20,667 nt of DNA from a virus: the IMG/VR virus record IMGVR_UViG_3300042987_002867, positions 1-20,667 of that record; one strand, given 5' to 3'. The position numbers were made by a program, and so were the translations under genes. Of the stretch, positions 5,436-17,828 are shown in pieces (the stretch's first letter is position 1; each line of letters opens with the position of its first letter). The notes under the pieces were generated by a model that saw only the letters and a program-made list of their open reading frames with translations, did not search any database and was not told where the DNA came from.

Positions 5436-5446
5436 GGGATAATAAA

Positions 5447-6289: not shown

Positions 6290-7024
6290 ATGAAATATCT
6301 TATACCAGAAATTTTTGACATGGTGCAGAAGGCAACCAACTATCAAGATCAAAAAAGAATTTTAGCAGCAAATGATTCAAAGGTTCTAATTGATTGCCTA
6401 CGTATTAACTTTTTACCACAGATGAAAATGGACCTCCCAGAGGGTGAGCCTCCATTTAAGAAAAAGAAAGACATTCCTATTGGTTATGCTGAATCAAATC
6501 TCTACAAAGAGATGCGACGATTCTATATCTGGCTGCAACCATCTAATCTGACAAAGGTACGAAAAGAAAATCTTTTTATTGAGTTACTAGAGTCGATTCA
6601 TCATACAGAGGCTGCAATAGTAGTTGCAATCAAGGATAAGAAGCTCTCTACACTTTACCCTAATATCACTTATGATCTGTGTAGAGATCTATATCCACAA
6701 TTTTTTCCTGAATTAGAGACACCAGTCGCAGCTGCAGTAGTCGAGGAAGCGAAGCAGGAAGCAAAGCAGCCAATTGATTTTCAGGAAACTGCAGCACCCT
6801 CTACAGGTGAACCAGATGCCAAACCAAATCAAAAAATAAAAAAAAAGAAGTTGTATATTCCGAACCCATACCGCGACAAGTGCGCTCTCTCATTGGAGGA
6901 GTGTATTTGCAAATCAAAGAGTATACGAAAAGGTTCTTGTCTAAATAGTAACAGTAAAATCTATCAATATATTAATGGAATGAAGGAAACTAAAAATGAG
7001 TCAGATTCTAACGAATCCAGCTGA
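6290..7024 (+). CDS. DUF6433-like conserved phage protein with Cys-containing tail
   Basis: The 244-aa protein starts immediately after the RNase H stop. The first 150 residues match the DUF6433 pattern I know from T4-like cyano- and pelagiphages: IPEIFDMVQ, an NDSKVLxDxL helix, LPEGEPPFKK near residue 50, LYKEMRRFYIWL, and AIKDKKLSTLYPNIT. A low-complexity linker of Ala, Glu, Lys and Gln follows, and then a basic C-terminus (KIKKKKLYIPNPYRD). The tail contains four Cys in about 25 residues (CALSLEECICKSKS then GSC), possibly a metal site. Function is unknown. Its last 29 nt overlap the start of the dsbA-like gene, suggesting coupled expression of rnh, this gene and dsbA. Confidence 0.75.
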   Translation: MKYLIPEIFDMVQKATNYQDQKRILAANDSKVLIDCLRINFLPQMKMDLPEGEPPFKKKKDIPIGYAESNLYKEMRRFYIWLQPSNLTKVRKENLFIELLESIHHTEAAIVVAIKDKKLSTLYPNITYDLCRDLYPQFFPELETPVAAAVVEEAKQEAKQPIDFQETAAPSTGEPDAKPNQKIKKKKLYIPNPYRDKCALSLEECICKSKSIRKGSCLNSNSKIYQYINGMKETKNESDSNESS

Positions 7025-7274
7025 TAGAAAAGCAATCAAGGATGCAATTAAAGAGATCTCAGCATCCATCACTCGAGTTGAAGCTGAACGAGATCTAATC
7101 AAGGAAATCATCTCGAATATCAATGAACAGTTTCTTCTGCCAAAGAAGCTTATTCGTAGAATGGCAAAAGTATATCACAATCAGAATTTCACCAAGGAAC
7201 AAGAGGAACATTCTGAATTCGAGGCACTATATGAAACAGTAGTAGAAGCATCCAATGCTAAAACCGACGACTAA
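6996..7274 (+). CDS. dsbA: DsbA-like late-transcription dsDNA-binding protein
   Basis: The 92-aa protein resembles T4 DsbA (89 aa) in length, helix order and sequence. It has an N-terminal helix (DRKAIKDAIKEIS), the ERDLIKEI helix matching NELIKDI in T4, then PKKLIRRMAKVYHNQNF matching the KMFNRLLALYHKDN segment, and a terminal acidic helix ending FEALYETVV (VVELYDTVF in T4). T4 DsbA binds DNA near late promoters and enhances late transcription. Location near the RNase H gene reproduces the T4 rnh-dsbA neighbourhood, here with one inserted gene. It overlaps the upstream gene by 29 nt. The match is by eye, so divergence in function cannot be excluded. Confidence 0.75.
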   Translation: MSQILTNPADRKAIKDAIKEISASITRVEAERDLIKEIISNINEQFLLPKKLIRRMAKVYHNQNFTKEQEEHSEFEALYETVVEASNAKTDD

Positions 7275-7449
7275 ATACATTGTAGAGGTGTCTCTACGTG
7301 ACTCTATCGATAGAGTCAGAAAATCAAAAATAGTTGGTGTGTGGGCTAGAATGGAGGATGTGCCACTTGATAAGATTCGCCGTCTAAACGAGATGGCTCA
7401 TCCTGACAAGAAAATAGAGATTCACGCCAGGGCATACTTCGATATCTAA
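7255..7449 (+). CDS. Small protein of unknown function (64 aa)
   Basis: The 64-aa product begins MLKPTTKYIVEVSLRD and ends HARAYFDI. It is basic, with an alternating strand-helix-strand pattern (KYIVEVSL, then PLDKIRRLNEMA, then KKIEIHARA), a compact alpha-beta fold. It overlaps the dsbA-like gene by 20 nt, so it is probably expressed from the same transcript. In T4 the neighbouring gene is 33, but this protein is shorter and I see no gp33 likeness. It is the last gene of the conserved block. The stop is followed at once by a CCATTGATT repeat element and the first promoter cassette. Confidence 0.6.
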   Translation: MLKPTTKYIVEVSLRDSIDRVRKSKIVGVWARMEDVPLDKIRRLNEMAHPDKKIEIHARAYFDI

Positions 7450-7450
7450 T

Positions 7451-7475
7451 CCATTGATTTTCCAGTACTTTTTAA
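7451..7475 (+). repeat. Orphan half of the TCATTGATT stem-loop repeat
   Basis: This segment reads CCATTGATTTTCCAGTAC then a T run. It is the reverse complement of the right arm of the repeat at about 10365-10390 (AAAAAGTACTG, then AATCAATG). No partner arm lies nearby, so it is a remnant or a single-arm copy, placed directly between a gene end and promoter P1. Confidence 0.5.
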
Positions 7476-7480
7476 AACGC

Positions 7481-7508
7481 TTGACAAATAGTTTAAAACC
7501 TGTATAAT
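7481..7508 (+). promoter_or_regulatory. Repeated promoter P1 (before 62-aa protein)
   Basis: TTGACA, the 16-bp spacer AATAGTTTAAAACCTG, then TATAAT. The -35 and -10 are perfect sigma70 consensus. It is followed by GGCAGCATAAGTTGACAACA and an AGGA site before the ATG at 7543. Confidence 0.9.
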
Positions 7509-7542
7509 GGCAGCATAAGTTGACAACACAGGAAAAAAACGA

Positions 7543-7731
7543 ATGAAACTGAGCAAAAAGACGACAAACACGCTGGAAACGATAATTAACGGCATGTTGG
7601 TGTATCAAAACATGGTAGCGCGCGCCATGGAAGAAAAGCGGTTTGATGATGCTGATAATGCTATGAAATGGTTTGATCAGCGTGCTGATGAAATGGTAAA
7701 CTATGGCATCCATATTCACAAGTATGGTTAG
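7543..7731 (+). CDS. Small helical protein, paralogue of 13209 gene (62 aa)
   Basis: The 62-aa protein is predicted to be mostly helical. It shares the layout of the 65-aa product at 13209: MK(L/F)SKKT at the start, I-N-x-(M/L)-L-V-Y-Q in the middle, a second helix with A-M-(K/Q)-W-F-(D/N)-Q-x-A-D, and a final (V/I)xKY. It is therefore one of two paralogues in this region, each behind its own copy of the repeated promoter. AGGA lies 9 nt before the ATG. The leader and start region are also similar to those of the AAA+ gene at 11478. The function is unknown. Size and strong promoter suggest an early host-takeover protein, which is inference. Confidence 0.75.
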   Translation: MKLSKKTTNTLETIINGMLVYQNMVARAMEEKRFDDADNAMKWFDQRADEMVNYGIHIHKYG

Positions 7732-7747
7732 TCGAGCCTAAAAACGC

Positions 7748-7775
7748 TTGACAAATAGTTTAAAACCTGTATAAT
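7748..7775 (+). promoter_or_regulatory. Repeated promoter P2 (before Gp88-like gene)
   Basis: TTGACA, the same 16-bp spacer AATAGTTTAAAACCTG as P1, and TATAAT. The preceding AAAACGC is also shared with P1. A ribosome binding site (GGAGA, 7796-7800) lies in the leader. Confidence 0.9.
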
Positions 7776-7809
7776 AGCAGCATTGACCTTGAATCGGAGA
7801 GTTATCTTG

Positions 7810-8451
7810 TTGAAACTTTCTAAAACATCAAAACTGGATAATATCAAAAGCTGGAGTCTACAAGCTTTGACTACATGTCCTGGCTCTATTGCGAAAGATG
7901 GTGGTCTGGTCGATGCCTGCAGGGGTTGCTATGCCACGCAAGGGTTCTATAATTTCAGCCAACCCAAGGCTGTCCGTGCCGATAATAAACAAGACTGGCA
8001 GCGAGATGAATGGGTTACCGACATGGTTGCCGCATTGAAAAAAGAATCCTACTTTCGCTGGTTTGATTCCGGCGACATGTATTCCATGAAACTGGCTGAG
8101 AAAATTCTGGCTGTTATGACCGCCACTCCTCATGTGAAACATTGGTTGCCGACTCGCATGTATAAATTTTCAAAATTTAGTCAAGTTCTTGCTAAAATGC
8201 AGGCTCTTCCTAATGTCATGGTTCGATTTTCCTCTGACTCCGTAATTGGTCAATATACTAAGGGCTTGCATGGTTCTACGATTCTACCGAGCCAAGATGT
8301 ACCTGAAGGCGTTGACCGCTGCGAAGCATACAATAACGGTGGTAAATGCTCTGGCTGCCGAAAATGCTACGACAAAGCGATACCCGTAATTGGGTATGTT
8401 CAGCATGGACGCACAATGAAAAAGGTAGTGGCTTTAAAGCTGGCAGCATAA
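7810..8451 (+). CDS. Gp88-family Cys-containing phage protein, TTG start
   Basis: The 213-aa product has the hallmarks of the phage Gp88 family (named after mycobacteriophage gene 88). These are an early SWSLQALTTCPGS, then CRGCYATQGFY (C37, C40), a WFDSGDMYS block, and PTRMYKF. C23, C37 and C40 form a conserved Cys set. A second cluster lies near the C-terminus, with four Cys in 16 residues (CEAYNNGGKCSGCRKC). A metal or Fe-S site is plausible but untested, and the function of the family is unknown to me. The start is TTG at 7810 (or 7807), because GGAGA at 7796-7800 fits and the earlier TTG at 7783 sits at the predicted transcription start of P2. The last codons and stop (GCA GCA TAA) lie in a copy of the sequence that follows promoter P1. 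Confidence 0.75.
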   Translation: MKLSKTSKLDNIKSWSLQALTTCPGSIAKDGGLVDACRGCYATQGFYNFSQPKAVRADNKQDWQRDEWVTDMVAALKKESYFRWFDSGDMYSMKLAEKILAVMTATPHVKHWLPTRMYKFSKFSQVLAKMQALPNVMVRFSSDSVIGQYTKGLHGSTILPSQDVPEGVDRCEAYNNGGKCSGCRKCYDKAIPVIGYVQHGRTMKKVVALKLAA

Positions 8452-8461
8452 GTTGACAACA
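8441..8461 (+). repeat. Copy of the post-promoter segment of P1
   Basis: These 21 nt are identical to 7508-7528, the bases following the -10 of P1 (TGGCAGCATAAGTTGACAAC plus A). Here no promoter precedes them. They provide the final Ala-Ala codons and TAA of the Gp88-like gene and lead into the next ribosome binding site. Confidence 0.8.
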
Positions 8462-8478
8462 TGAAAAAGGAGAATAGC

Positions 8479-8802
8479 ATGTTTGAAAATACACTTTCTT
8501 CTAGCATTGAATTTTTTGTTAATGAAATTGATTCTAAAGTAGAGAAATTTCTAAAAACCATGGAGCGCACCAATGCCCAACAACTAGGCCTAGACTATCG
8601 CGCTGGGCATAATTTATTTGTGGGACAAGAGTGTATTGGTGTAAGGAACAATTCTGCTGATCAGCGCTCACTTGAGTATTATGGTGGATTTGAGTATATA
8701 GATTTTGAAGATAGAATTTATGCCGGCGACTACATTTTTTATCTAGACTCCGATGACAGGGTAGCAAAGTGTATCGAGAGATTTGCAGATAAAAATGCTT
8801 GA
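8479..8802 (+). CDS. Protein of unknown function (107 aa)
   Basis: The 107-aa acidic protein starts MFENTLSSSIEFFVNEI and ends CIERFADKNA. AAGGAG 6 nt before the ATG at 8479 makes this start better than the in-frame ATG at 8461. A helical N-terminus is followed by a beta-rich part with many Asp and aromatic residues (GGFEYIDFEDRIYAGDYIFYLDSDD). No family is recognised. It has no promoter of its own and probably depends on P2 with the Gp88-like gene. Its stop is the TGA inside the -35 hexamer of P3, so its C-terminal Ala-stop is encoded by the promoter cassette. Confidence 0.7.
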   Translation: MFENTLSSSIEFFVNEIDSKVEKFLKTMERTNAQQLGLDYRAGHNLFVGQECIGVRNNSADQRSLEYYGGFEYIDFEDRIYAGDYIFYLDSDDRVAKCIERFADKNA

Positions 8803-8826
8803 CAAATAGTTTAAAACCTGTATAAT
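8799..8826 (+). promoter_or_regulatory. Repeated promoter P3 (before OB-like gene)
   Basis: TTGACA, the spacer AATAGTTTAAAACCTG, and TATAAT, followed by AGCAGCATAA. The TGA in its -35 is the stop codon of the upstream gene. GGAG before the ATG at 8859 completes the leader. Confidence 0.9.
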
Positions 8827-8858
8827 AGCAGCATAAATTAACACATTGGAGTACTTAA

Positions 8859-9563
8859 ATGAGCTTCGAGTTTGGTAGCGTAAGTGACAAAGAAAATTTC
8901 TTCTCGTTCAAAGCGCTTATCAAGAACAATGGCTTTTTTAAGTCTTCAAAGCAGAAAGCCTTCATGGAGAGGAATCTGGTAGCTCTCGAGAAATCCCATG
9001 GAGGTTTCGAGGCTCAATTCGACCGCATGCAGAGGTACTTCGGTATCACCATTAACAAAAATGAGCGAGTCGATGAATGCACCGCCTACATGCGGTGGGC
9101 GGATTATGGTTCACGTAGTCAAATTCCTCTGCTCTACTTCTTCGTCTTTGACGAATTTGGTATAGTTCGTCACTACAAGGTTGGTGGTCGAGGCAATCTG
9201 CGTGATGGTTGGAGCGCTGATCCCAAGAAGTGCAAGCTGCTCTGGAGTCGTCCAAGCGACGCAGTTGCGCCTGTTTTTGAGGCAGCAAAAGAGCCTACTC
9301 CGAGTATTAGTGTGTGGATCGGTGAGGTGGGTACTAAGCTGGTTGTGCAGGGCAAGATCAAAGCCCAGCGTAGTTTTGGTTATAATCAATTTGGTGAGTC
9401 GTTTCTCACCACAATCGAGGACATGGCAGGCAACATCATCAATGTCTGGAAAAACCTTGGTGGTTTGGTTGGTGATGAAATCAGTATCAAGGGCACGGTG
9501 AAGTCTCTGGCAGAATTCAATGGTGTGAAGCAAACTGTCATGACTCGAGTTAAGGTACAATAA
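8859..9563 (+). CDS. Phage protein with possible C-terminal OB-fold (234 aa)
   Basis: The 234-aa protein opens MSFEFGSVSDKENFF and has two parts. The N-terminal 145 residues are mixed, with many aromatic and basic residues and a short strand LLYFFVFDEFG. The C-terminal 85 residues have the strand pattern of a nucleic-acid-binding OB domain: TKLVVQGKIKAQRSF, FLTTIEDMAGNIINVW, GDEISIKGTVKSL, TVMTRVKV. This is a visual assignment. Single-stranded DNA or RNA binding is therefore only suggested. It is the first gene under P3 and is followed 10 nt later by the alarmone-hydrolase-like gene, so the two are probably one operon. Confidence 0.65.
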   Translation: MSFEFGSVSDKENFFSFKALIKNNGFFKSSKQKAFMERNLVALEKSHGGFEAQFDRMQRYFGITINKNERVDECTAYMRWADYGSRSQIPLLYFFVFDEFGIVRHYKVGGRGNLRDGWSADPKKCKLLWSRPSDAVAPVFEAAKEPTPSISVWIGEVGTKLVVQGKIKAQRSFGYNQFGESFLTTIEDMAGNIINVWKNLGGLVGDEISIKGTVKSLAEFNGVKQTVMTRVKVQ

Positions 9564-9573
9564 GGAATATATC

Positions 9574-10098
9574 ATGCAAGAACTAGTCTCAAAGGCACTC
9601 ATCTTCGCTACTGCAGCACATGCAGCGGTAGGTCAAAAGCGCAAGTATACTGGTGAAGATTACATCGTGCATCCGATTGAGGTTAAGGAGATTGTATCTA
9701 CAGTTCCTCACACTCAGGAAATGCTTTGTGCGGCTCTTCTGCATGATGTTCTAGAGGATACAAAGTGCACTTATGGCTTGCTCCACTCAACTTTTGGTGA
9801 AAACATCGCTGATCTGGTGCTCTGGCTTTCAGATGTCAGCAAGCCAGAGGACGGTAATCGGTCATTTAGAAAGATGATTGATCGCCAGCATATTGCAGCT
9901 GCTCCTTTTACAGCACAGACAGTAAAAGTTGCTGATCTGATCTCCAACACTCGATCCATTCTGGCATACGACAGAAACTTTGCTAAGGTGTATCTGGAGG
10001 AGAAAAAGCTTCTTCTAGAGGTGCTGACAAAGGCTGACAAGACTCTGGTGGCGCGTGCTTATGCTCAAATCGAGGATGCTCGAGAAAATGTTCTCTAG
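9574..10098 (+). CDS. HD-domain (p)ppGpp hydrolase-like protein (small alarmone hydrolase)
   Basis: The 174-aa protein matches the hydrolase domain of RelA/SpoT and stand-alone MESH1-type enzymes. H33, H57-D58 (LLHDVLEDT), E61-D62 and D121 with N125 (VKVADLISNT) reproduce the manganese and catalytic residue order. The spacing H33 to H57 (24) equals H53 to H77 in Rel of Streptococcus, and D121 to N125 equals D144 to N148. The basic residue before YIVHP is K24 where Rel has R44. No synthetase domain is present. The likely role is removal of the 3' pyrophosphate of (p)ppGpp in the host cytoplasm. Related nucleotides, or NADPH as for human MESH1, are alternatives. AAGGA precedes the ATG. It is expressed from P3 with the OB-like gene. 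Confidence 0.85.
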   Translation: MQELVSKALIFATAAHAAVGQKRKYTGEDYIVHPIEVKEIVSTVPHTQEMLCAALLHDVLEDTKCTYGLLHSTFGENIADLVLWLSDVSKPEDGNRSFRKMIDRQHIAAAPFTAQTVKVADLISNTRSILAYDRNFAKVYLEEKKLLLEVLTKADKTLVARAYAQIEDARENVL

Positions 10099-10273
10099 AA
10101 AAGAGAAGTTGTTTAAGTATGGTAAGAGTATTGGTATACTAATAGAGAGTGATCGGCAATGGTTTTTCATCGATGAGCATTACAGAGATAAGAAAGAGGG
10201 CTCGACCATCAGGATTGATTCGCTGGAATCAGACACAGCTGGAGCTGTTCTGGATCTGGTGGAATGGTCCTGA
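10088..10273 (+). CDS. Small protein of unknown function, possible +1 frameshift extension
   Basis: The 61-aa reading starts MFSRKEKLFKYGKSIG and ends AVLDLVEWS at a TGA. It overlaps the hydrolase gene by 11 nt, and no strong ribosome binding site is present, so coupling is likely. The C-terminus sits at TGG TCC TGA C. The +1 frame beyond it is open to 10349 and reads DKVLIEEKWQRGYWLPVENA, which looks like normal protein sequence. The gene may be an 86-aa protein broken by a single-base change, or one read by +1 frameshifting. The 5' part has strand-rich character (IGILIESDRQWFFIDEHY). No family is recognised. Confidence 0.55.
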   Translation: MFSRKEKLFKYGKSIGILIESDRQWFFIDEHYRDKKEGSTIRIDSLESDTAGAVLDLVEWS

Positions 10274-10332
10274 CAAGGTCCTTATTGAGGAAAAATGGCA
10301 GCGCGGCTACTGGTTGCCGGTAGAAAACGCGC

Positions 10333-10391
10333 AACTCATTGATTCTTAAGTGTTTTTAGTTTTCCAAAAAGTACTGTAGAATCAATGAGTT
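10333..10391 (+). repeat. Large inverted repeat, AACTCATTGATTCT arms
   Basis: The left arm is 10333-10346 and the right arm 10378-10391 (AGAATCAATGAGTT), a perfect 14-bp inverted repeat around a 31-nt loop. The loop itself can pair partly (TTTTT with AAAAA). The RNA stem-loop could stop transcription, protect a 3' end or be an RNase III site. A related repeat lies at 13913-13977. Confidence 0.8.
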
Positions 10392-10415
10392 ATGGAAATT
10401 TGGGCGCTACAGAGC
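10380..10415 (+). repeat. 36-nt direct repeat, copy 1
   Basis: Identical over 36 nt to 13968-14003. It covers the right stem arm, the segment TTATGGAAATTTGGG and the start of the terminator palindrome. Exact identity over 3.5 kb suggests recent duplication or gene conversion between cassettes. Confidence 0.8.
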
Positions 10416-10428
10416 TCTGTAGCGTTTT
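10405..10428 (+). terminator. Rho-independent terminator (20-nt palindrome plus T run)
   Basis: CGCTACAGAGCTCTGTAGCG is a perfect palindrome, giving an 8-bp stem with an AGCT loop, followed by TTTT. It ends the transcript from P3 and lies about 40 nt upstream of P4. Confidence 0.8.
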
Positions 10429-10468
10429 CTACCGTCTACTAGCACACTAGATCCGTGAGAACTAATGC

Positions 10469-10496
10469 TTGACAAATAGTTCTTGCCATGTATAAT
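10469..10496 (+). promoter_or_regulatory. Repeated promoter P4 (variant spacer)
   Basis: TTGACA, the 16-bp spacer AATAGTTCTTGCCATG, and TATAAT. The first seven spacer bases match the main family, but the second half is of the CATG subtype. GGAGATGCC before the ATG at 10520 gives a good ribosome binding site. Confidence 0.9.
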
Positions 10497-10519
10497 AGCA
10501 GCATCGATTAGGAGATGCC

Positions 10520-10687
10520 ATGAATTTCGGTCTGAAAACAGTGGTTTGGTGGTGCAAGGAATATCGGATGTACTGTGCAGTGCATCAAGATGAGAATGAT
10601 AATCAAGTGGGTAGTGCTGGCTACGGCATGACCAAGAGCTCAGCAATCGCAGATCTGCAATACCAGCAAAGTATCAAAATCAAATGA
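10520..10687 (+). CDS. Small protein of unknown function (55 aa)
   Basis: The gene encodes 55 residues starting MNFGLKTVVWWCKEYRMY and ending QQSIKIK. GGAG lies 5 nt before the ATG and P4 is directly upstream, both supporting expression. The protein has a strand with two Trp, a polar loop (HQDENDNQVG) and a short helix (SSAIADLQYQQS). The stop overlaps the next start in ATGA. Function is unknown. Confidence 0.65.
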   Translation: MNFGLKTVVWWCKEYRMYCAVHQDENDNQVGSAGYGMTKSSAIADLQYQQSIKIK

Positions 10688-10827
10688 TAGTGTATATCGT
10701 TCTCAAGAACGGTGAGGTGGATGAAGTTTTTCTGCACAGAAAAGACGCAGAGAATCATAGAGATAATCTCACTCGAGGGTGGAATCTGACAAAAATCATT
10801 GAAAAGACAGTGAATACTCTCCTCTAG
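10684..10827 (+). CDS. Small protein of unknown function (47 aa)
   Basis: The 47-aa product reads MIVYIVLKNGEVDEVF and continues to TKIIEKTVNTLL. It overlaps the preceding gene by 4 nt (ATGA) and is probably translated by coupling from P4. A strand-turn-strand followed by a helix (RKDAENHRDNL) and another helix is suggested. This resembles small phage proteins in which a VYIVLKNGEV hairpin leads a helix, but no family name can be given. Confidence 0.6.
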   Translation: MIVYIVLKNGEVDEVFLHRKDAENHRDNLTRGWNLTKIIEKTVNTLL

Positions 10828-10838
10828 GAATGTACTAA

Positions 10839-10895
10839 ATGATTGATTTTGTGGTGAAAAAACGTGTAGATGGTATCGAGGAAGAAAAGGCTTGA
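10839..10895 (+). CDS. Possible 18-aa peptide ending in the promoter P5
   Basis: A short frame reads MIDFVVKKRVDGIEEEKA and stops at the TGA inside the -35 of P5. The ribosome binding site is weak. It may be the truncated 5' end of a longer gene cut by cassette insertion, or a chance frame. It is listed because the Ala-stop ending matches that of three firmer genes. Confidence 0.3.
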   Translation: MIDFVVKKRVDGIEEEKA

Positions 10896-10919
10896 CAAAT
10901 AGTTTAAAACCTGTATAAT
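10892..10919 (+). promoter_or_regulatory. Repeated promoter P5 (before 10960 gene)
   Basis: TTGACA, the spacer AATAGTTTAAAACCTG, and TATAAT. It is followed by AGCAGCATGATGA, so an ATG falls at the expected transcription start (10926). Confidence 0.9.
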
Positions 10920-10925
10920 AGCAGC

Positions 10926-10955
10926 ATGATGAATAAACAAGCAGAAACGGAGTAA
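10926..10955 (+). other. Possible leaderless 9-aa leader peptide
   Basis: ATG ATG at the predicted transcription start of P5 opens a frame MMNKQAETE followed by TAA, ending 5 nt before the start of the 10960 gene. The same GCAGCATGATGA segment begins the gene after P10. It may be a translated leader or a by-product of the cassette sequence. Confidence 0.25.
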
Positions 10956-10959
10956 TGTC

Positions 10960-11373
10960 ATGGCATACGTTAGTCAAGAGATGAAAGCCAAGAAGGCGCC
11001 CAAGATTAAGGCAATTTGCAATCGGTATGGCGTCAAGGCCACGCTCGCTGTTCGCACGCATAGTACTCTGGTGCTCAATGTCAAGTCGGGACCCATTGAT
11101 TTCATTGGTAATTTCAATCGCGTGGCGGGCAAGCTGCTCGACCATCGGAGCTATCCTTTCACTCCGGTTGAGAGGGATATCAGCGTAAATCCCTATTGGT
11201 TCCATGAGCATTTTGATGGAGAAGCCAAGAAGTTTCTCACTGAGGTACTTGCATGCATGAACGAGGGAAACCACGACAGATCCGACATTCAGACCGACTA
11301 CTTCGACGTAGGCTGGTACGTGGATGTAAACATCGGCAAGTGGAATAAGCCTTACTCATTGATTACTAAGTAG
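10960..11373 (+). CDS. Conserved phage protein of unknown function (137 aa)
   Basis: The 137-aa protein begins MAYVSQEMKAKKAPKIKAI and carries RTHSTLVLNVKSGPIDFI (about residues 32-49), VNPYWFHEHFDGEA near 86, and the C-terminal DIQTDYFDVGWYVDVNIGKW. I recall proteins with these blocks in many tailed phages and some plasmids, always without assigned function. GGAG precedes the ATG and P5 is immediately upstream. The last residues (SLITK) are encoded by the CTCATTGATTACT repeat, a copy of the element also found at the ends of other units, so the C-terminus may have been altered by cassette recombination. Confidence 0.75.
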   Translation: MAYVSQEMKAKKAPKIKAICNRYGVKATLAVRTHSTLVLNVKSGPIDFIGNFNRVAGKLLDHRSYPFTPVERDISVNPYWFHEHFDGEAKKFLTEVLACMNEGNHDRSDIQTDYFDVGWYVDVNIGKWNKPYSLITK

Positions 11374-11416
11374 TTTTTCCACTAGTAACTTTCTGCAGTT
11401 TTTTGGTAGAAACTGC
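11355..11416 (+). repeat. TCATTGATT element plus hairpin abutting P6
   Basis: CTCATTGATT at 11355-11364 overlaps the gene end. GCAGTTT (11395-11401) and AAACTGC (11410-11416) form a 7-bp stem with an 8-nt loop, and the stem ends exactly where TTGACA begins. The T-rich surroundings could let it act as a terminator. Confidence 0.6.
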
Positions 11417-11444
11417 TTGACAAATAGTTTAAAACCTGTATAAT
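11417..11444 (+). promoter_or_regulatory. Repeated promoter P6 (before AAA+ gene)
   Basis: TTGACA, the spacer AATAGTTTAAAACCTG, and TATAAT, followed by ACATAGCATAAATTG. The leader then matches that of P1 closely (ACACAGGAAAAA, CGAATGAA), including the ribosome binding site and start codon. Confidence 0.9.
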
Positions 11445-11477
11445 ACATAGCATAAATTGATGACACAGGAAAAACGA

Positions 11478-12380
11478 ATGAACGCCAAGATTGTTTTCAG
11501 CAAGTCTCTGAACAAGTACACCGTAGTTGCTAATGGTAAGATCGTTGCCAAGAGCAACAAGCAGGATTACCTGAAGATGCGTGCGATGGAGCTTGGTTAC
11601 ACTATCGACCAGACTGCTGATGCTGACAAGCCGAAGGCTAGCGAGTTTGGTATCAATCAGCGGTTTGACTTTGTCAAGCGTATGGTTAACATGGTGTCGA
11701 ATGGCACCGTAGCCTCTGCAGTGATCACCGGTGAGGGTGGTTTGGGTAAGACTCACTCGGTTCTGAAGGCTCTCGATGCTGCTGGATTGCAGAATGTGAC
11801 TGACATGGCAGCTTTCGAGGTTGGTACTAAGATTCGCACCTCAAAGTCGTACCGCATCATCAAGGGTTTCTCCTCCGCTAAGGGCTTGTATCGTGCCCTG
11901 TATGAAGGCAACGAGATGACTCTGGTTTTTGATGATTGCGACTCGGTTCTAAAGGATCCTGTTGCACTGAATCTGCTGAAGGGTGCTCTGGATTCCTACT
12001 CGGAGCGTTACATTAGCTGGAATGCAGACATTCGAGACGAAGACCTGCCCCGTTCCTTCAAGTTCACTGGCAATGTGATCTTCATCTCGAATATGGAGCT
12101 TCTGTCGATTGACCAGGCAGTTCGTAGTCGTGCAATGTGTGTGGACGTCAGCATGACCGAAGCGCAGAAGGTTGAGCGGATGGAGGTGATCATTCAAGAC
12201 GCAGACTTTTTGCCTGGTTTCGCAATGGAGGTCAAGAAGGATGCAGTCGAATACATCAAGAGCATCCTTAGCGAAATCTCGAATCTGTCGCTGCGTTCAC
12301 TGATTGCCACTGTGAAGATTCGTGCTGAGGGTGGTAACTGGAAGCAGTTCGCCAAGTATGTGCTGACTCAAGGAGCGTAG
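11478..12380 (+). CDS. AAA+ family ATPase
   Basis: The 300-aa protein has Walker A GEGGLGKT (residues 85-92) and Walker B TLVFDDCD (148-155, D152-D153). Sensor-1-like VIFISN ends at N205, and an AVRSRA arginine-finger-like segment lies near 214-219. The first 50 residues are a small basic beta-rich domain (KIVFSKSLNKYTVVANGK). The helical C-terminal lid follows residue 230. It should bind and hydrolyse ATP, perhaps as a ring, but the partner is unknown. Start 11478 is chosen because AGGA lies just before it, whereas the in-frame ATG at 11457 is nearly at the transcription start. It is the only gene under P6. Its codon use is rich in G/C-ending codons compared with the nrd block, suggesting different ancestry. 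Confidence 0.85.
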   Translation: MNAKIVFSKSLNKYTVVANGKIVAKSNKQDYLKMRAMELGYTIDQTADADKPKASEFGINQRFDFVKRMVNMVSNGTVASAVITGEGGLGKTHSVLKALDAAGLQNVTDMAAFEVGTKIRTSKSYRIIKGFSSAKGLYRALYEGNEMTLVFDDCDSVLKDPVALNLLKGALDSYSERYISWNADIRDEDLPRSFKFTGNVIFISNMELLSIDQAVRSRAMCVDVSMTEAQKVERMEVIIQDADFLPGFAMEVKKDAVEYIKSILSEISNLSLRSLIATVKIRAEGGNWKQFAKYVLTQGA

Positions 12381-12430
12381 ATGTCTACGCAAACCTCCAT
12401 AAAAACAATGAGTTACGAGATCCAAAAAAC

Positions 12431-12459
12431 ACTTAGAAATCAATGACCTAAGTATTTTT
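12431..12459 (+). terminator. Stem-loop plus T run after AAA+ gene
   Basis: ACTTAG (12431-12436) pairs with CTAAGT (12448-12453) around an 11-nt loop containing ATCAATGA, followed by ATTTTT. The stem is weak, so it may be only a partial terminator. Confidence 0.5.
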
Positions 12460-12462
12460 GGG

Positions 12463-12480
12463 CGCTATAGAGCGTTTTTT
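12463..12480 (+). terminator. Short terminator-like element (CGCT-ATAG-AGCG, T6)
   Basis: A 4-bp stem with a 4-nt loop is followed by TTTTTT. It aligns with the longer palindrome at 10405 as an 8-nt deletion form. The core GGGCGCTA(T/C)AGAG is shared by all three copies. Confidence 0.55.
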
Positions 12481-12527
12481 CAGTGGTTTCTGTGCCAGTA
12501 TACACTAGAAAATCGGGCTAGAAACGC

Positions 12528-12555
12528 TTGACAAATAGTTTAGTTCATGTATAAT
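12528..12555 (+). promoter_or_regulatory. Repeated promoter P7 (CATG subtype)
   Basis: TTGACA, the spacer AATAGTTTAGTTCATG, and TATAAT. The spacer is identical to that of P10. GAGG before the ATG at 12582 completes the unit. Confidence 0.9.
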
Positions 12556-12581
12556 GCAAGCATACTGATTGAGGTCATGAA

Positions 12582-12767
12582 ATGAAACGCGGTATTCGAC
12601 AAGTTAAAGCTGAGCTGGATGCCCTTCGGGACGAATATGATCGCCGCAGAGCGATACTCGAGCAAGAAATAATCACTATTCGCAAGAGTAGCGGCTACAA
12701 GCTTAAGCAATCGAATTTTGCTGATTATTTCGAGCCCGGACGTAGTCGCGAACCCGGTCAACGCTAA
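12582..12767 (+). CDS. Small coiled-coil protein (61 aa)
   Basis: The 61-aa protein is highly charged. Residues 4-36 read as a coiled coil or long helix (RQVKAELDALRDEYDRRRA, then ILEQEI), and the C-terminal part has FADYFEPGRSREPGQR. GAGG lies 7 nt before the ATG and P7 is directly upstream. No family is recognised. The shape suggests a dimerising small protein that binds a host or phage partner. Confidence 0.65.
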   Translation: MKRGIRQVKAELDALRDEYDRRRAILEQEIITIRKSSGYKLKQSNFADYFEPGRSREPGQR

Positions 12768-12780
12768 GAAAGGTATAGAA

Positions 12781-13152
12781 ATGTTTTTCACTTTTAGCCA
12801 AAATAACTCGGGTGGTGGGTTTGATTTCGATGAAAAGGTCAGTGAGTATGTGATCATAGAAGCAGATTCTCCGGAGTTAGCGAATGAGCGCGCCGAAGAA
12901 ATAGGAATATATTTTGATGGTTGTGATTCTGAATTAGACTGTCCCTGCTGCGGTGATAGGTGGTGCAGGGTGTCCAATTTGGACGGAACTGAAGTTCCGG
13001 AAATATATGGAAAAAACCCGCAAGATGTAAAAACCACTTTTGTTAATTTTGTTAATGTAGGCGGAGTTTATTGTTACGTATACTACAAAAATGGAACGGT
13101 TGAGGAGTATCGCAAGCCGGTACCGGTTTACCGGTCACGAAAAAAGGCTTGA
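12781..13152 (+). CDS. DUF7296-like phage protein
   Basis: The 123-aa protein starts MFFTFSQNNSGGGFDFDE and has VIIEADSPELANERAEEIG, IYFDGCDSELDCPCCGDRW and a Trp/Tyr-rich strand region. The FSQNNSGG start, the IYFDGC block and the CPCCGDRW Cys cluster (four Cys close together, plus a following WC) match a phage family I know as DUF7296-like. Metal binding is likely and the role unknown. AAAGG precedes the ATG. The gene shares P7 with the coiled-coil protein. Its last codons (AAG GCT TGA) run into P8, so the stop is the TGA of the -35 hexamer. Confidence 0.75.
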   Translation: MFFTFSQNNSGGGFDFDEKVSEYVIIEADSPELANERAEEIGIYFDGCDSELDCPCCGDRWCRVSNLDGTEVPEIYGKNPQDVKTTFVNFVNVGGVYCYVYYKNGTVEEYRKPVPVYRSRKKA

Positions 13153-13176
13153 CAAATAGTTTGAAACCTGTATAAT
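13149..13176 (+). promoter_or_regulatory. Repeated promoter P8 (before 65-aa paralogue)
   Basis: TTGACA, the spacer AATAGTTTGAAACCTG (one change from the main form), and TATAAT, then AGCAGCAT. The -35 contains the stop of the upstream gene. Confidence 0.9.
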
Positions 13177-13208
13177 AGCAGCATCGATTGTCAAACTGGA
13201 ATGTAAAA

Positions 13209-13406
13209 ATGAAGTTTAGTAAGAAGACTGCCAAAGAACTTAGTTCTAACATTAACGCTCTGCTGGTTTATCAGGTGATGGCAAAGGATAGTATCAAGGC
13301 CAAGGATTCTATTAAGACTCTCAAAGCCATGCAATGGTTTAATCAATATGCCGACAAACTGATCGAAATGGGACTGACTGTCGATAAGTATCAAATTTCG
13401 GAGTAG
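13209..13406 (+). CDS. Small helical protein, paralogue of 7543 gene (65 aa)
   Basis: The 65-aa product is a diverged paralogue of the 62-aa protein at 7543. Shared features are the MKFSKKT start, I-N-A-L-L-V-Y-Q, the helix KAMQWFNQYADK, and the VDKY end. It has an extra KAKDSIK repeat in the middle (IKAKDSIKTLK), probably a small internal duplication. Both copies lie behind a copy of the same promoter. The start at 13209 is chosen over an in-frame ATG at 13188 because it matches the paralogue's N-terminus. Function is unknown. Confidence 0.75.
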   Translation: MKFSKKTAKELSSNINALLVYQVMAKDSIKAKDSIKTLKAMQWFNQYADKLIEMGLTVDKYQISE

Positions 13407-13408
13407 AT

Positions 13409-13669
13409 ATGAAAAGCATAGAGATTCAGGAATCAATCGCTCACTGGGCGCGACATAACAACTTCAATGCACCATATGGCGTTCTCACAGGTGAGCACAT
13501 GAACAAGAAAGGCAGAAAGTATTTGTCAGTAACTTTCGGTCGACCTCGAACTCTTGACTGTACAGTAGACATCTACAATAAGAACTTCATGGTGGTTACC
13601 TCTAGTCGGCATGGCTCTAGGGCATTCACGAGTGTAGAGGAACTGAAGGAATTTCTGGATCAGATCTGA
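13409..13669 (+). CDS. Small protein of unknown function (86 aa)
   Basis: The 86-aa protein begins MKSIEIQESIAHWARHNNF and ends SVEELKEFLDQI. It has a basic character and a pattern of helix, several strands (KYLSVTFG, CTVDIYN, FMVVTSS) and a final helix, a small alpha-beta domain. GGAG lies about 8 nt upstream of the ATG. The stop and next start overlap (TGATG). It is in the P8 transcript with the 65-aa paralogue. No family is recognised. Confidence 0.7.
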   Translation: MKSIEIQESIAHWARHNNFNAPYGVLTGEHMNKKGRKYLSVTFGRPRTLDCTVDIYNKNFMVVTSSRHGSRAFTSVEELKEFLDQI

Positions 13670-13920
13670 TGTCTGAACAAATTGGCATGACCAAGCAGGA
13701 GTTTCTCGATTACTGGCTGCAGCCAGATGAATATGGTATGACAAATCTAGACTACCTGAGAGAAAATCTACGTGAGAGTGTTTCTCAATATCGTTCTGAG
13801 TGTTCATTGTTCGGTGACGCAGGTCCAGGGCAATTGAGAAACATTCTGATGTTACGAGAGGAGCATGATCGAGTAAAAAATCGACTCGAGGAATTCTCCG
13901 CGGAACTGCCATCTCATTGA
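13669..13920 (+). CDS. Small acidic helical protein (83 aa), unknown
   Basis: The 83-aa product starts MSEQIGMTKQEFLDYW and ends EEFSAELPSH. It is acidic and nearly all helical, with a possible coiled coil near the end (REEHDRVKNRLEEF). It overlaps the previous stop by 1 nt (TGATG), indicating reinitiation. Its final codons and TGA are part of the CTCATTGATT stem arm at 13913, so the repeat reaches into the coding end. Function is unknown. Confidence 0.65.
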   Translation: MSEQIGMTKQEFLDYWLQPDEYGMTNLDYLRENLRESVSQYRSECSLFGDAGPGQLRNILMLREEHDRVKNRLEEFSAELPSH

Positions 13921-13977
13921 TTCTAAAGCACTTTTTCAAAACTAGAAAAAACTAGAAAACACCAGAAAATCAATGAG
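13913..13977 (+). repeat. Inverted repeat, CTCATTGATT arms
   Basis: CTCATTGATT (13913-13922) pairs with AATCAATGAG (13968-13977), a perfect 10-bp stem around an A-rich loop with a repeated ACTAGAAAA. It is a diverged copy of the repeat at 10333-10391. Confidence 0.75.
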
Positions 13978-14003
13978 TTATGGAAATTTGGGCGCTACAG
14001 AGC
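13968..14003 (+). repeat. 36-nt direct repeat, copy 2
   Basis: Identical to 10380-10415. It covers the right stem arm, TTATGGAAATTTGGG and the first part of the terminator core. Confidence 0.8.
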
Positions 14004-14009
14004 GTTTTT
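13993..14009 (+). terminator. Short terminator-like element (CGCT-ACAG-AGCG, T5)
   Basis: A 4-bp stem is followed by TTTTT. Compared with the 20-nt palindrome at 10405 it lacks 8 nt (CTCTGTAG), so the stem is shortened and termination may be leaky. Confidence 0.55.
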
Positions 14010-14067
14010 CTAGTAGTTTCCGACCCAGTATCCAGCTCAAATCGTAGAATTACCGCGAAACTAATGC

Positions 14068-14095
14068 TTGACATTTAGTTATAACCATGTATAAT
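14068..14095 (+). promoter_or_regulatory. Repeated promoter P9 (most diverged copy)
   Basis: TTGACA, the spacer TTTAGTTATAACCATG, and TATAAT. It keeps TAGTT, CATG and the 16-bp length, and is followed by GGTAACATA. Confidence 0.85.
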
Positions 14096-14121
14096 GGTAA
14101 CATACTTCAACGGAGATGAAT

Positions 14122-14388
14122 GTGCGAACTAAAGTGATGTTCCCTGGTGTCAAGAACTCTCAGAAAATCCGTGTTCTGGTTGACGGGTTTGGCATGTATA
14201 TGCGAGTCTGCGAACTGCCCAATATTTGCACCTCAAATCACCGTGCTGCTATTGAATCTGCTATGATCTCATTGTCCTCTAGCATTGCTGCTGGTAATCA
14301 GATTACTGGCTTTGCTTCTGGCGTGATGGTTTATGATGATAAAATGCAGAATACTCGCGTGGATGTCCAGATTGACCTGGTGAACTAA
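14122..14388 (+). CDS. Small protein of unknown function (88 aa), first of a tandem pair
   Basis: The 88-aa product reads from GTG at 14122 (MRTKVMFPGVKNSQKIRV). GGAG at 14112-14115 is 6 nt before this GTG but abuts the ATG at 14116, so GTG is favoured and MNVRTKV is the alternative. The N-terminal part has strands (KIRVLVDG, MYMRVCEL). The C-terminal part (HRAAIESAMISLSSSIAAG, then VMVYDD and RVDVQIDLV) is repeated in diverged form just downstream at 14384-14572. No family is recognised. It is driven by P9. The C-terminus is shorter than in the downstream copy, which continues with GNTVMIY. Confidence 0.65.
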   Translation: MRTKVMFPGVKNSQKIRVLVDGFGMYMRVCELPNICTSNHRAAIESAMISLSSSIAAGNQITGFASGVMVYDDKMQNTRVDVQIDLVN

Positions 14389-14572
14389 TATCTGTACTAT
14401 CACGCATCGAGTCGCAGTGGAATCTGCACTGACAATTCTCGGCTCTGTAATTAAGTCTGGTAAGAAACTCTCCAGCTTTGTCGATAATATCAGAGTATAT
14501 GATGATAATCTGCAATATAAGATGGTGAAGGTGCAGGTCGATTTGTTGGGTAACACTGTAATGATCTACTAA
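14384..14572 (+). pseudogene. Start-less diverged copy of the 14122 gene's C-terminal half
   Basis: In frame 2 the sequence reads TNICTITHRVAVESALTILG, later FVDNIRVYDDNLQY and KVQVDLLGNTVMIY, then TAA. It aligns throughout with NICTSNHRAAIESAMISL, MVYDDKMQ and DVQIDLV of the upstream gene. There is no ATG at its beginning. The frame is bounded by TGA at 14381 and only an internal GTG (14417) exists, without a ribosome binding site. It is therefore the 3' part of a tandem paralogue that lost its 5' end, or a +1 frameshift extension of the upstream gene. Confidence 0.6.
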
Positions 14573-14574
14573 CC

Positions 14575-14748
14575 ATGAAAAAATACCGCGTATACTTTTA
14601 TGTGAGTCCTTCAGGTAAGGACATGGTTGCTGACTATGATGCTGTAAATGAGAATGAAGCTATGTCTTTCTTTCAGAAGGATTTTTTCTGCAATTCTTCT
14701 TACGTGTCTGTCTACGTAGACATGATTAAAGAAGTAAAAAGTGCTTGA
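14575..14748 (+). CDS. Small protein of unknown function (57 aa)
   Basis: The 57-aa protein reads MKKYRVYFYVSPSGKDMVAD, then a helix (AVNENEAMSFFQKDFF), and ends SVYVDMIKEVKSA. A strand-helix-strand layout like that of small phage hairpin proteins is visible. It starts 2 nt after the stop of the decayed copy and lacks a clear ribosome binding site, so it may depend on coupling. The stop TGA lies within the -35 of P10, giving the Ala-stop end typical of genes upstream of these cassettes. Confidence 0.6.
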   Translation: MKKYRVYFYVSPSGKDMVADYDAVNENEAMSFFQKDFFCNSSYVSVYVDMIKEVKSA

Positions 14749-14772
14749 CAAATAGTTTAGTTCATGTATAAT
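14745..14772 (+). promoter_or_regulatory. Repeated promoter P10 (CATG subtype)
   Basis: TTGACA, the spacer AATAGTTTAGTTCATG (identical to P7), and TATAAT, followed by AGCAGCATGATGA. The first ATG lies 7 nt after the -10, at the expected transcription start. Confidence 0.9.
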
Positions 14773-14778
14773 AGCAGC

Positions 14779-14958
14779 ATGATGACGATAAAAGTTAAAG
14801 TAGTTGACCGGTACATGACGTATCTTTTTGATGCTGACATGCCTGCAAAGTATTGGTATTCGCCGACATGTTGCCCCAAGACGTTTGAGTTTGAGAATGC
14901 AGTGCATATGTACTACAGCGATTTTAAATATTTCACCGATCAATTGATTGTCGAATAG
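14779..14958 (+). CDS. Small protein of unknown function (59 aa), probable leaderless start
   Basis: The 59-aa product reads MMTIKVKVVDRYMTYLFD and ends YFTDQLIVE. ATG at 14779 (or 14782) is at the predicted +1 of P10, so the mRNA would have little or no 5' leader. No ribosome binding site is possible between promoter and start. A later ATG at 14815 (MTYLFDAD) has no convincing site either. The protein is rich in aromatic residues, with a CC pair (SPTCCPKTFEF), and looks alpha-beta. Function is unknown. Confidence 0.6.
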   Translation: MMTIKVKVVDRYMTYLFDADMPAKYWYSPTCCPKTFEFENAVHMYYSDFKYFTDQLIVE

Positions 14959-14967
14959 AGAGACATA

Positions 14968-15144
14968 ATGAACAAGGAACTTCGCCGTCTTGCAGTAAAA
15001 GCAGGTGCAACTAAAGAAATGTTAAAGAGCCAGGCATTTCAGGATTTCTGCGGACGATTCGCCGATGTTATTCTGCAGGAAGCTGAAAATGAAATGCTTA
15101 TGCTCGCTGCAGAAGAATATGAATCATCTGCAGTTCGCCATTAA
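14968..15144 (+). CDS. Small protein of unknown function (58 aa)
   Basis: The 58-aa protein begins MNKELRRLAVKAGATKEML and ends EEYESSAVRH. It has a mostly helical profile, with a block FCGRFADVILQEAENEML that resembles the FAELIVxE segment of small phage proteins of unknown role. The ribosome binding site is weak (GAGAGA). It follows the P10 gene after 9 nt, so it is probably in that transcript. Confidence 0.6.
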   Translation: MNKELRRLAVKAGATKEMLKSQAFQDFCGRFADVILQEAENEMLMLAAEEYESSAVRH

Positions 15145-15163
15145 AACGGTTAACGAGGGAAAA

Positions 15164-15307
15164 ATGAGCAAGACGTTTAAGCTACGGGATCCTTATGCGC
15201 GTGAGTTGCTTACATCAGGTAAGTACAAGCAGCGTGTGGTTTCACTCAAAAAGACTTACAAGCGTAAGTATCGCACACAAAAGGATGAACTAAATGAATT
15301 GCAATGA
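15164..15307 (+). CDS. Small basic phage protein (47 aa)
   Basis: The 47-aa strongly basic protein begins MSKTFKLRDPYARELLTSGK and ends KYRTQKDELNELQ. Similar short proteins with an FKLRDPxA(R)xL start followed by VVxxKKxYxRK occur in T4-like phages, role unknown. High positive charge (about one third Lys or Arg) suggests nucleic-acid binding. GAGGG precedes the ATG. The gene overlaps the ligase start by 14 nt, so its translation is probably linked to ligase. Confidence 0.7.
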   Translation: MSKTFKLRDPYARELLTSGKYKQRVVSLKKTYKRKYRTQKDELNELQ

Positions 15308-16607
15308 TATTCTGCTGCAGCTAGAGCAAACATCCTCTCGCCTAGCAAAAGAGAGTATTCTTCGGCAGAATATCGACAATACCACTCTAAAGCGAGTGGT
15401 AGAGTTGGCGTTGAATCCCACAATCAATTTCTACATCAAGAAGATTCCCGACTATTCTTCTACACCCAAGGCACTTCGTCCGTTTAGTCTAGACTGGGCT
15501 CTGACTGAACTGACTCGCTTTAGTACTCGGGAACTAACTGGAAATGATGCAATCAATCATCTACAACTAATTCTTAAATCATTGTCAAAGGAAGATGCCA
15601 GTGTCATTGAAAAAGTCATTAAGCGAGATCTGCGCTGCGGAGTATCAGAGGCAACAGCGAATAAGATTTGGAAAGGTCTCATCCCAGAATACCCAGTTAT
15701 GTTGGCTTCCAGCTTCGACGAGAAACTACTTGAAAAAATCAAGTTCCCGGCAATCGTCCAACTCAAGCTGGATGGAATGCGCTTTAACGCGATCTGTAAA
15801 AACGGCAAAGTAGAATTTCGTTCTAGAAACGGTAAGGAGATCGACCTACTAGGGCATCTAGAGGAAGAATTTAAGCTTCTAGCAAACGGTGACAATCTTG
15901 TTTTTGACGGTGAACTCCTGGTCATTGATAAAAACGGCGATACACTCAATCGAAAAACTGGTAACGGCATTCTAAACAAGGCAGTCAAGGGTACTATCTC
16001 TGAAAAAGAGGCTAGCTTTGTACGATGTTCACTTTGGGATGTAATTCCTCTTGTAGATTTCTACAAGAATAAATGTACCACACCATATGAAGAACGATAC
16101 CACAATCTCTACGAACTATGGAGGATTTTGCCACCTAAGCCAAAAAATAAAACTAGATTGATTGTCTCTACAATTGTAGATAATCTAGAGGAGGCAAATG
16201 GTCTCTTTGAGAGATATCTCAATCAAGGTGAGGAAGGTATTATTCTAAAAGATAAGCAAGGTATCTGGGAGGCTAAGCGCGTTAAGACACAGATTAAGTT
16301 TAAAGGTGAGCTTGAGTGTGATCTTAGGTGCATAGGTTGGGAGTATGGATCTGGTAAGAATTCTAAGCGCCTAGGTAATTTAGTTCTAGCGTCTGAGGAT
16401 AAAGTTATTAAAGTCTCTGTAGGTACTGGATTTGGTGATGCTGATCGTGATACAATTACACGAGAGATAATCGGCAAGATCATAGCTATTAAGTACAATG
16501 CTCGAATTAAGGACAAAAAGACTGGGCAGGAGTCACTGTTTCTGCCAGTATTCGTAGAGATTCGAGAGGACAAAACTGTAGCAGATTCATCAAAGGATAT
16601 TAAGTAA
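15294..16607 (+). CDS. lig: ATP-dependent DNA ligase, T4 gp30-like
   Basis: The 437-aa protein joins nicks in duplex DNA with ATP. The adenylation motif KLDGMR has nucleophile K158, next to the position of K159 in T4 ligase. Motif IV is EGIILK (314-319) and motif V is QIKFK (333-337). The N-terminal 130 residues form the helical DNA-binding domain seen in gp30-type ligases (RDLRCGVSEATANKIW), and the C-terminal OB domain follows residue 340. Total length is a little below T4 gp30 (487 aa). It overlaps the 47-aa gene by 14 nt and is followed by a TAATG overlap with the next gene. It would work with RNase H in Okazaki-fragment maturation. Confidence 0.95.
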   Translation: MNCNDILLQLEQTSSRLAKESILRQNIDNTTLKRVVELALNPTINFYIKKIPDYSSTPKALRPFSLDWALTELTRFSTRELTGNDAINHLQLILKSLSKEDASVIEKVIKRDLRCGVSEATANKIWKGLIPEYPVMLASSFDEKLLEKIKFPAIVQLKLDGMRFNAICKNGKVEFRSRNGKEIDLLGHLEEEFKLLANGDNLVFDGELLVIDKNGDTLNRKTGNGILNKAVKGTISEKEASFVRCSLWDVIPLVDFYKNKCTTPYEERYHNLYELWRILPPKPKNKTRLIVSTIVDNLEEANGLFERYLNQGEEGIILKDKQGIWEAKRVKTQIKFKGELECDLRCIGWEYGSGKNSKRLGNLVLASEDKVIKVSVGTGFGDADRDTITREIIGKIIAIKYNARIKDKKTGQESLFLPVFVEIREDKTVADSSKDIK

Positions 16608-16831
16608 TGGGTGTATTAGTAAAGGTGGAGGTAGATCTATTTGAAATAGATTCCTCCGATTTAAAACATGAGCTAGAGCGTAGAGGATATGAGGTAACTT
16701 TACCATATATCCAAGATATAGATGACGATGAAACGCTACTCATTAAAATTTACGAGACAAAAAAGCTTGGTGGTAATATAGATACTCTACTTAATGAATA
16801 CATTTATAAAAAATTAGGAGTACTACTGTGA
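16607..16831 (+). CDS. Small acidic protein of unknown function (74 aa)
   Basis: The 74-aa product reads MGVLVKVEVDLFEIDSSDLK and ends YIYKKLGVLL. It has a strand, a helix (DLKHELERRGY), a short acidic loop (QDIDDDETLL) and a C-terminal helix. The stop of ligase and this start overlap by 1 nt (TAATG). Its own stop overlaps the GTG start of the metallophosphoesterase. It is therefore part of a ligase-phosphoesterase operon. No family is recognised. Confidence 0.7.
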   Translation: MGVLVKVEVDLFEIDSSDLKHELERRGYEVTLPYIQDIDDDETLLIKIYETKKLGGNIDTLLNEYIYKKLGVLL

Positions 16832-17598: not shown

Positions 17599-17828
17599 AA
17601 AAGTTTGACAAGGTAATGGAGTGGGTAAGTACTGCTATACTTCTAGTAGGAGTGGTACTCACTAGCTTCAATATCTTTCCACTTAATGTATGGTTTTCCC
17701 TAGCAGGAAACGTGTGCTGGATCATTGTAGGAATCATGTGGAGAAAGTATAGCTTAATTGTTGTCAGTACAGTTATATCTGTGCTATACTTGATTGGTCT
17801 AGTCAAAGAGTATTTCTATGCAAGCTAA
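17595..17828 (+). CDS. Small membrane protein (77 aa)
   Basis: The 77-aa protein has three hydrophobic segments: about residues 14-31 (STAILLVGVVLTSFNIFP), 32-48 (WFSLAGNVCWIIVGIMW) and 53-72 (LIVVSTVISVLYLIGLV). It starts with basic residues (MKKFDK) and probably spans the inner membrane two or three times. The gene overlaps the phosphoesterase by 4 nt and the next gene by 11 nt. Its role is unknown. It could be a host-membrane modifier, but there is no holin-specific sign and the endolysin is 2 kb away. Confidence 0.75.
   Translation: MKKFDKVMEWVSTAILLVGVVLTSFNIFPLNVWFSLAGNVCWIIVGIMWRKYSLIVVSTVISVLYLIGLVKEYFYAS
17761..17790 (+). promoter_or_regulatory. Possible promoter within the membrane-protein gene
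   Basis: TTGTCA (17761-17766) and TATACT (17785-17790) are separated by 18 bp, with TGC before the -10. It lies upstream of the 17818 gene but inside coding sequence. The match is moderate and could be chance. Confidence 0.3.

Follow-up and report, generated by a model that had tools for sequence, protein, structure and literature searches.

Promoter-early stem-loop (PeSL) cassettes occur in the Krischviruses RB49 and phi1 and in other T4-like phages, and gene exchange via these cassettes has been proposed for RB49 and phi1 (Arbiol 2010 and Comeau 2014, as cited in PMC4503421 and PMC5348500). T4 early promoters carry a GTTTAC -35 element and a TGn extended -10 element (PMC2988021, PMC1524935). 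In the haloarchaeal virus HGTV-1, a promoter-like motif with an inverted repeat precedes most open reading frames on one side of the genome, an arrangement that has been likened to PeSLs (PMC3950731). Here, we describe an array of ten promoters in a DNA stretch of 20,667 nt (hereafter the window; IMG/VR record IMGVR_UViG_3300042987_002867, positions 1-20,667, one strand) from an uncultivated virus of bacteria. The array is probably a hypervariable early-gene region of a T4-type phage, in which a copied promoter core serves as homology for gene exchange.

Ten exact TTGACA-N16-TATAAT sites, all on the + strand, were confirmed at every position proposed by an earlier sequence-only reading, and together they are predicted to represent ten consensus copies of a strong sigma-70-like promoter. 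Exact sites were rare in 2000 mononucleotide shuffles (mean 0.015 per window, maximum 1). With up to two mismatches allowed, 14 sites were counted against 4.3 expected, a number reached in none of 100 dinucleotide shuffles. A pair of independent contigs, 23.8 and 30.3 kb long, covers window positions 1457-12843 at 99.99% identity and 12717-20667 at 99.95%, and the array is therefore no assembly artefact. Together, the contigs extend the window at its two ends, bringing the known phage sequence to ~54 kb, in which these promoters are confined to the 7.3-kb array, with none in the other ~46 kb (2e-9 under even placement). The promoters form one repeat family of ~45-46 nt (TGCTTGACAAATAGTTTAAAACCTGTATAATAGCAGCAT and variants), 70-96% identical to a reference copy, and five of the ten are identical over 28 nt. 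Letter-identical spacers are likewise present in five of ten, the others of the same genome differing at 5-8 positions. This shared spacer, termed family A, is found in promoters 1 (7481-7508), 2 (7748-7775), 3 (8799-8826), 5 (10892-10919) and 6 (11417-11444), and with one mismatch in promoter 8 (13149-13176). Promoter 4 (10469-10496) has the spacer TTCTTGCCATG, promoters 7 (12528-12555) and 10 (14745-14772) have TTTAGTTCATG, and promoter 9 (14068-14095) has TTATAACCATG. The sequence AGCAGCAT, said to follow most copies, follows six of ten exactly; the remaining post-promoter sequences are GGCAGCAT, GCAAGCAT, GGTAACAT and the 1-nt-longer ACATAGCAT.

Like PeSL cassettes, whose recombination reportedly yielded small circular DNAs in the work of Arbiol (2010), the array combines repeated sigma-70-type promoters, a hypervariable T4-type region, stem-loops at some of the copies and a turnover of genes where the cassettes lie. 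A scan of RB49 likewise showed that one genome can hold families of near-identical spacers. One RB49 family, however, holds the palindrome GGGGATC...GATCCCC inside a 17-bp spacer, whereas the window spacer is 16 bp long and lacks this palindrome; the window instead has a stem-loop built from a 26-bp element (E26) and a GGGCGC terminator ~55-150 bp upstream of the promoter, missing in half of the copies. The T4 early promoters are likewise near-perfect sigma-70 promoters in several copies, with A-rich tracts upstream of them and small early genes behind, but the window has TTGACA, a 16-bp spacer, TG immediately before TATAAT and a conserved TAGTT in the spacer. T4 middle promoters carry a MotA box 12 +/- 1 bp upstream of the -10 element, replacing the -35. 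Reading TGCTTGACA as such a box was ruled out by spacing, as its GCTT lies in the -35 region, at least 18 bp from the -10. The HGTV-1 motif differs in being of the archaeal TATA-box type and, as far as described, is not homologous in sequence. Searches with the promoter block among cultured phages returned weak matches only, and the promoter plus AGCAT was not found in bacterial genomes.

Megablast recovered no close annotated relatives of the window, and no cultured phage is close, the best cultured-phage match of the window ligase being 44% identical. Comparisons were made with the contigs G005 (54 kb), G002/G003 (149/156 kb), G008/L053, G006 and G001; as G003 does not differ from G002 across the 21-kb ligase region compared, G002 alone was used. 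The window carries the T4-type marker genes for an RNase H-like exonuclease, DsbA and DNA ligase, and the gp23 capsid gene is present in G001 and G002. To the left, the array is flanked by genes for a ribonucleotide reductase small subunit, the RNase H-type exonuclease, a DUF6433 protein and DsbA; to the right lie those for DNA ligase, a metallophosphoesterase and PhoH. These flanking genes form a T4-type gene set, and the phage is related to T4. With a degenerate promoter pattern, the same promoter family, with a 16-bp spacer throughout, was located in G005, G002/G003, G008/L053 and G006, and near-matches in G001. From the dsbA side to the ligase gene, the window spans 7.7 kb with ten promoters, G005 1.35 kb with four and G002 ~1.3 kb with one; this comparison places the array in a hypervariable gap bounded by conserved T4-type genes.

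Gene neighbourhoods change at the promoters. Every promoter-bearing junction of the window, ten in all, is broken in both G005 and G002; for the remaining junctions, the broken fraction is 17 of 33 and 16 of 30, respectively (Fisher p 0.007 each). The phrog_10415 gene (10960-11373, behind promoter 5) lies in the gap in the window and in G005; in G002, it is found ahead of the RNase H block, where two copies of another small gene flank it and promoters lie on both sides. Across the three phages, its neighbours differ, and the promoter in front and the E26/promoter behind are retained, a pattern indicating that this gene moved with its promoter. The phrog_1250 gene (11478-12380, behind promoter 6) has a different upstream neighbour in the window, G001 and G002, with a promoter always in between. 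L053 and G005 share 91.8% identity over 4,879 bp, ending 15 nt past a promoter, after which L053 continues with a gene of the 7543 type and G005 with the phrog_10415 gene. The comparison of gene content across relatives, suggested together with the initial prediction, thus found changes at the promoters rather than one gene order free of cassette-linked gain or loss.

Promoter spacers are more alike within genomes (similarity 0.665) than between them (0.584), a difference that none of 2000 permutations matched. Within-genome similarity is also higher for the 10 nt directly following the -10 (1 of 2000) but not for the next 20 nt of the leader. A single mismatch in 28 nt separates promoters 1 and 8, and the paralogous genes behind them (7543-7731 and 13209-13406) are 62% identical. 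At the end of gene 7783-8451, an orphan copy of the promoter-1 leader (8442-8461, + strand) matches 7509-7528 at 20 of 20 nt and has no promoter; it is a probable recombination scar. We read these patterns as suggesting that the promoter block spread by copying or gene conversion inside the genome, with selection for a fixed spacer as the rival.

Of 80 phrog_10415 homologues examined in environmental phages, 67 are directly preceded by a strong promoter. At 41 of these 67 loci, the same promoter with a lineage-specific spacer occurs at least three times within 5-12 kb, against an average of 0.07 in spacer-shuffled controls. Like the window, these arrays (3-9 copies) use one promoter with a lineage-specific spacer; unlike it, they mostly have 17-bp spacers of other sequence, and E26 is almost absent. 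Loci L162-L240, for example, carry 17-bp spacers such as AATAAATGGGTTTGGGT around the phrog_10415 homologues, with nine copies in 7.3 kb in L208. The arrangement is therefore not new in kind, being common in environmental phages and known in RB49. The description of the array as an unrelated-sequence version of PeSL stands against RB49, where the palindrome lies in the spacer, and has to be tempered in that the array is less exceptional than thought, because lineage-specific promoter arrays are widespread.

In the reading that we favour, each of the ten promoter copies would drive expression of one to three small accessory genes as soon as infection begins, and at full modules, the inverted E26 pair and GGGCGC hairpin would first end the upstream transcript. 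The promoter core (~45 bp) would be copied between sites within this genome and, being uniform across the sites, would supply short homology at gene boundaries. Small genes could then be gained, lost and swapped at the promoters through phage recombination, with the promoter homology as the presumed substrate. The array, its lineage-specific homogeneity, its hypervariable position, the turnover at promoter junctions and the movement of a gene with its promoter can all be read from the compared sequences. Several points weigh against this reading. Spacers could also stay similar through selection for a phage-specific promoter. The Fisher result is in part a property of the region, because nearly all junctions in the gap are broken, with or without a promoter. 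Misassembly at the repeat is possible in L053, because this contig stops 163 nt beyond the switch. The terminator module occurs at just three of ten promoters and half elements at two, leaving five with neither stem-loop nor terminator. Finally, in a wider set of related phage loci, 28% of homology ends lay no more than 60 bp from a strong promoter, versus 8% for random positions; with near-duplicates removed and random gene junctions as the null, the values were 31% versus 23% (p 0.09, not significant). The enrichment was not taken as proof because of this fairer null.

The most serious alternative, which we regard as possible though clearly less probable, is a plain early-transcription array, in which one optimal promoter is selected per lineage and read by the host polymerase or a phage factor, turnover results from illegitimate recombination at gene ends, and promoters mark block ends only. 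The environmental arrays around the phrog_10415 gene fit this account, as do the T4-like genomes each reported with its own early consensus (PMC1524935) and the breakpoints, which track gene junctions generally (98% within 100 bp) without a significant promoter excess. Set against it, identical spacers in half of the copies, with 5-8 differences elsewhere, argue for copying rather than a loose optimum, and the orphan leader and the switch between L053 and G005 exactly after a promoter speak in the same direction. Specific cases favour cassette recombination, which may also be the general cause of the exchanges. The sequence-only reading is partly supported. Of its two proposals, a PeSL-like system is largely right and agrees with the hypervariable gap, the ten changed junctions and the relocated phrog_10415 gene but sits less well with the half of copies that lack a stem-loop; mobile cassettes as the unit of exchange agree with the gene changes at promoters, including the one switch just past a promoter, but are weakened by the lack of a significant excess over gene junctions.

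Upstream of several promoters lies E26 (AACTCATTGATTTACCAGTACTTTTT). A full module consists of an inverted E26 pair, a GGGCGCYAYAGAGCG hairpin placed 22-23 nt past the start of the conserved core in the right arm, and 55-88 nt to the promoter. Single arms in either orientation also precede promoters, and the stop codon of the upstream gene is often overlapped. The prediction that stem-loops or terminators precede several promoters was borne out at promoters 4, 7 and 9 (one or two E26 arms with a GGGCGC terminator) and by half elements before promoters 1 and 6. Before promoter 1, a single arm (7448-7473, +, 19.4 bits by nhmmer) overlaps the stop of gene 7255-7449. The full module of promoter 4 comprises a left arm (10333-10357, +, 20.0 bits), a right arm (10366-10391, -, 22.1 bits) at a centre spacing of 33, and a terminator-like GGGCGC hairpin with a T run (10402-10428, +); this region (10330-10435) alone is much more stably folded than its shuffled versions (z -7.1, against -2.1, -1.6 and ~0 for the others). 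The single arm before promoter 6 (11354-11378, +, 17.3 bits) encodes the final codons of the phrog_10415 gene. Promoter 7 is preceded by a right arm (12425-12445, -, 12.6 bits) and a terminator-like GGGCGC hairpin (12460-12480, +). At the full module of promoter 9, the left arm (13913-13936, +, 19.4 bits) overlaps the stop of gene 13669-13920, the right arm (13956-13979, -, 13.5 bits) follows at a centre spacing of 43, and a terminator-like GGGCGC hairpin occupies 13990-14010 (+). An Rfam search of the window gave no match.

E26 is confined to the clade, with 40 nhmmer hits of at least 12 bits in 383 kb (overlaps included), 0 in the reversed sequence and 2 across other phage loci totalling 1.5 Mb. 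Centre spacings of E26 pairs fall only at 22, 33-34 and 43-44 (p 0.016 when each class is counted once), and two of the longer loops resemble separate 10-bp tandem duplications. The stepped spacing hints at a DNA-level role, with few classes behind it; the clade-specific element and its stepped spacing are new. It is conceivable, though unlikely, that E26 is a DNA-binding site whose inverted pairs are phased protein sites controlling early promoters or acting in recombination, the stem-loop not being mainly an RNA terminator. Clade confinement, the discrete pair spacings and the location of 30 of 42 copies, as single arms in both orientations or as inverted pairs, within 200 bp upstream of promoters are consistent with this proposal; it is, however, post hoc, draws on few independent spacing classes, presupposes a binding protein and leaves 12 copies without a nearby promoter, and the arm-to-promoter distance shows no significant phasing (p 0.12). 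A further feature is the set of stop codons in the promoter itself. The TGA of TTGACA ends genes 8461-8802, 12781-13152 and 14575-14748 at promoters 3, 8 and 10, as well as further genes in G005, G002 and G006. Together with a spacer TAG and the TAA of TATAAT, this TGA gives a typical promoter stops in all three frames, as read from the sequence; these three-frame stops are new. We would give only a small chance to the further idea that E26 sites, spaced in steps close to one turn of the helix and occupied by a phage protein, form with the three-frame-stop promoter a self-contained, clade-specific gene-boundary module for DNA-level shuffling or control; if true, such a module could be inserted between or into genes, providing a clean end upstream and a strong start downstream. 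A REP- or MITE-like mobile unit of E26 pair and promoter spread by a transposase is very improbable: despite the high copy number, the inverted E26 pairs and a nearby gene similar to homing endonuclease families (3295-3708), the copy extent varies from promoter alone to one arm to full module, and no transposase gene was found among the genes scanned.

As had been predicted, one to three small genes lie behind each promoter. They are the 62-aa gene 7543-7731 (promoter 1); the GP88 gene 7783-8451 and 8461-8802 (promoter 2); 8859-9563 and the HD_4 gene 9574-10098 (promoter 3); 10520-10687 and 10684-10827 (promoter 4); the phrog_10415 and phrog_1250 genes (promoters 5 and 6); 12582-12767 and the DUF7296 gene 12781-13152 (promoter 7); 13209-13406, 13409-13669 and 13669-13920 (promoter 8); 14116-14388, 14417-14572 and 14575-14748 (promoter 9); and 14764-14958 and 14968-15144 (promoter 10). 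Apart from the GP88, HD_4, phrog_10415, phrog_1250 and DUF7296 products, most are small and without family, and gene 14417-14572 is a partial paralogue of 14116-14388. The HD_4 domain is of the SpoT/MESH1 hydrolase type (PF13328), and its product possibly acts on alarmone nucleotides, judging from the family. Ten accessory proteins gave no match to anti-phage defence models. Outside the array, a decayed eleventh cassette (TTGACA-17-AATAAT, 3904-3932, +) has a weak E26 arm at 3873-3894.

Other features were observed in the same phage and its relatives. Permuted (two-piece) tmRNAs are encoded by this phage and by G002 (L072 9206-9610, -, ~0.7 kb past the right end of the window, and L074 9891-10274), with the tags ANDAYYEDLKLAA and ANDAFYTEEYALAA (Rfam RF04321, 127.5 and 135 bits). 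The G002 tmRNA also matches the betaproteobacterial tmRNA family, which points weakly to the host. In G002, a long GTCTAG/GTCTGG-type hexamer repeat lies directly upstream of the promoter at 77181 (L077). G006 carries ~30 tRNA genes in a 7.4-kb block (L065 4851-12238), including one called tRNA-Pyl with a CTA anticodon, a possible amber suppressor.

Taken together, these results suggest that lineage-specific promoter arrays are common among uncultivated T4-type phages, extending to them the PeSL concept, which was based on a small number of cultured phages of enterobacteria and Vibrio. The L053/G005 pair and the phrog_10415 gene offer compact natural test cases for the gain and loss of small early genes, and E26 provides a defined DNA element for functional study.

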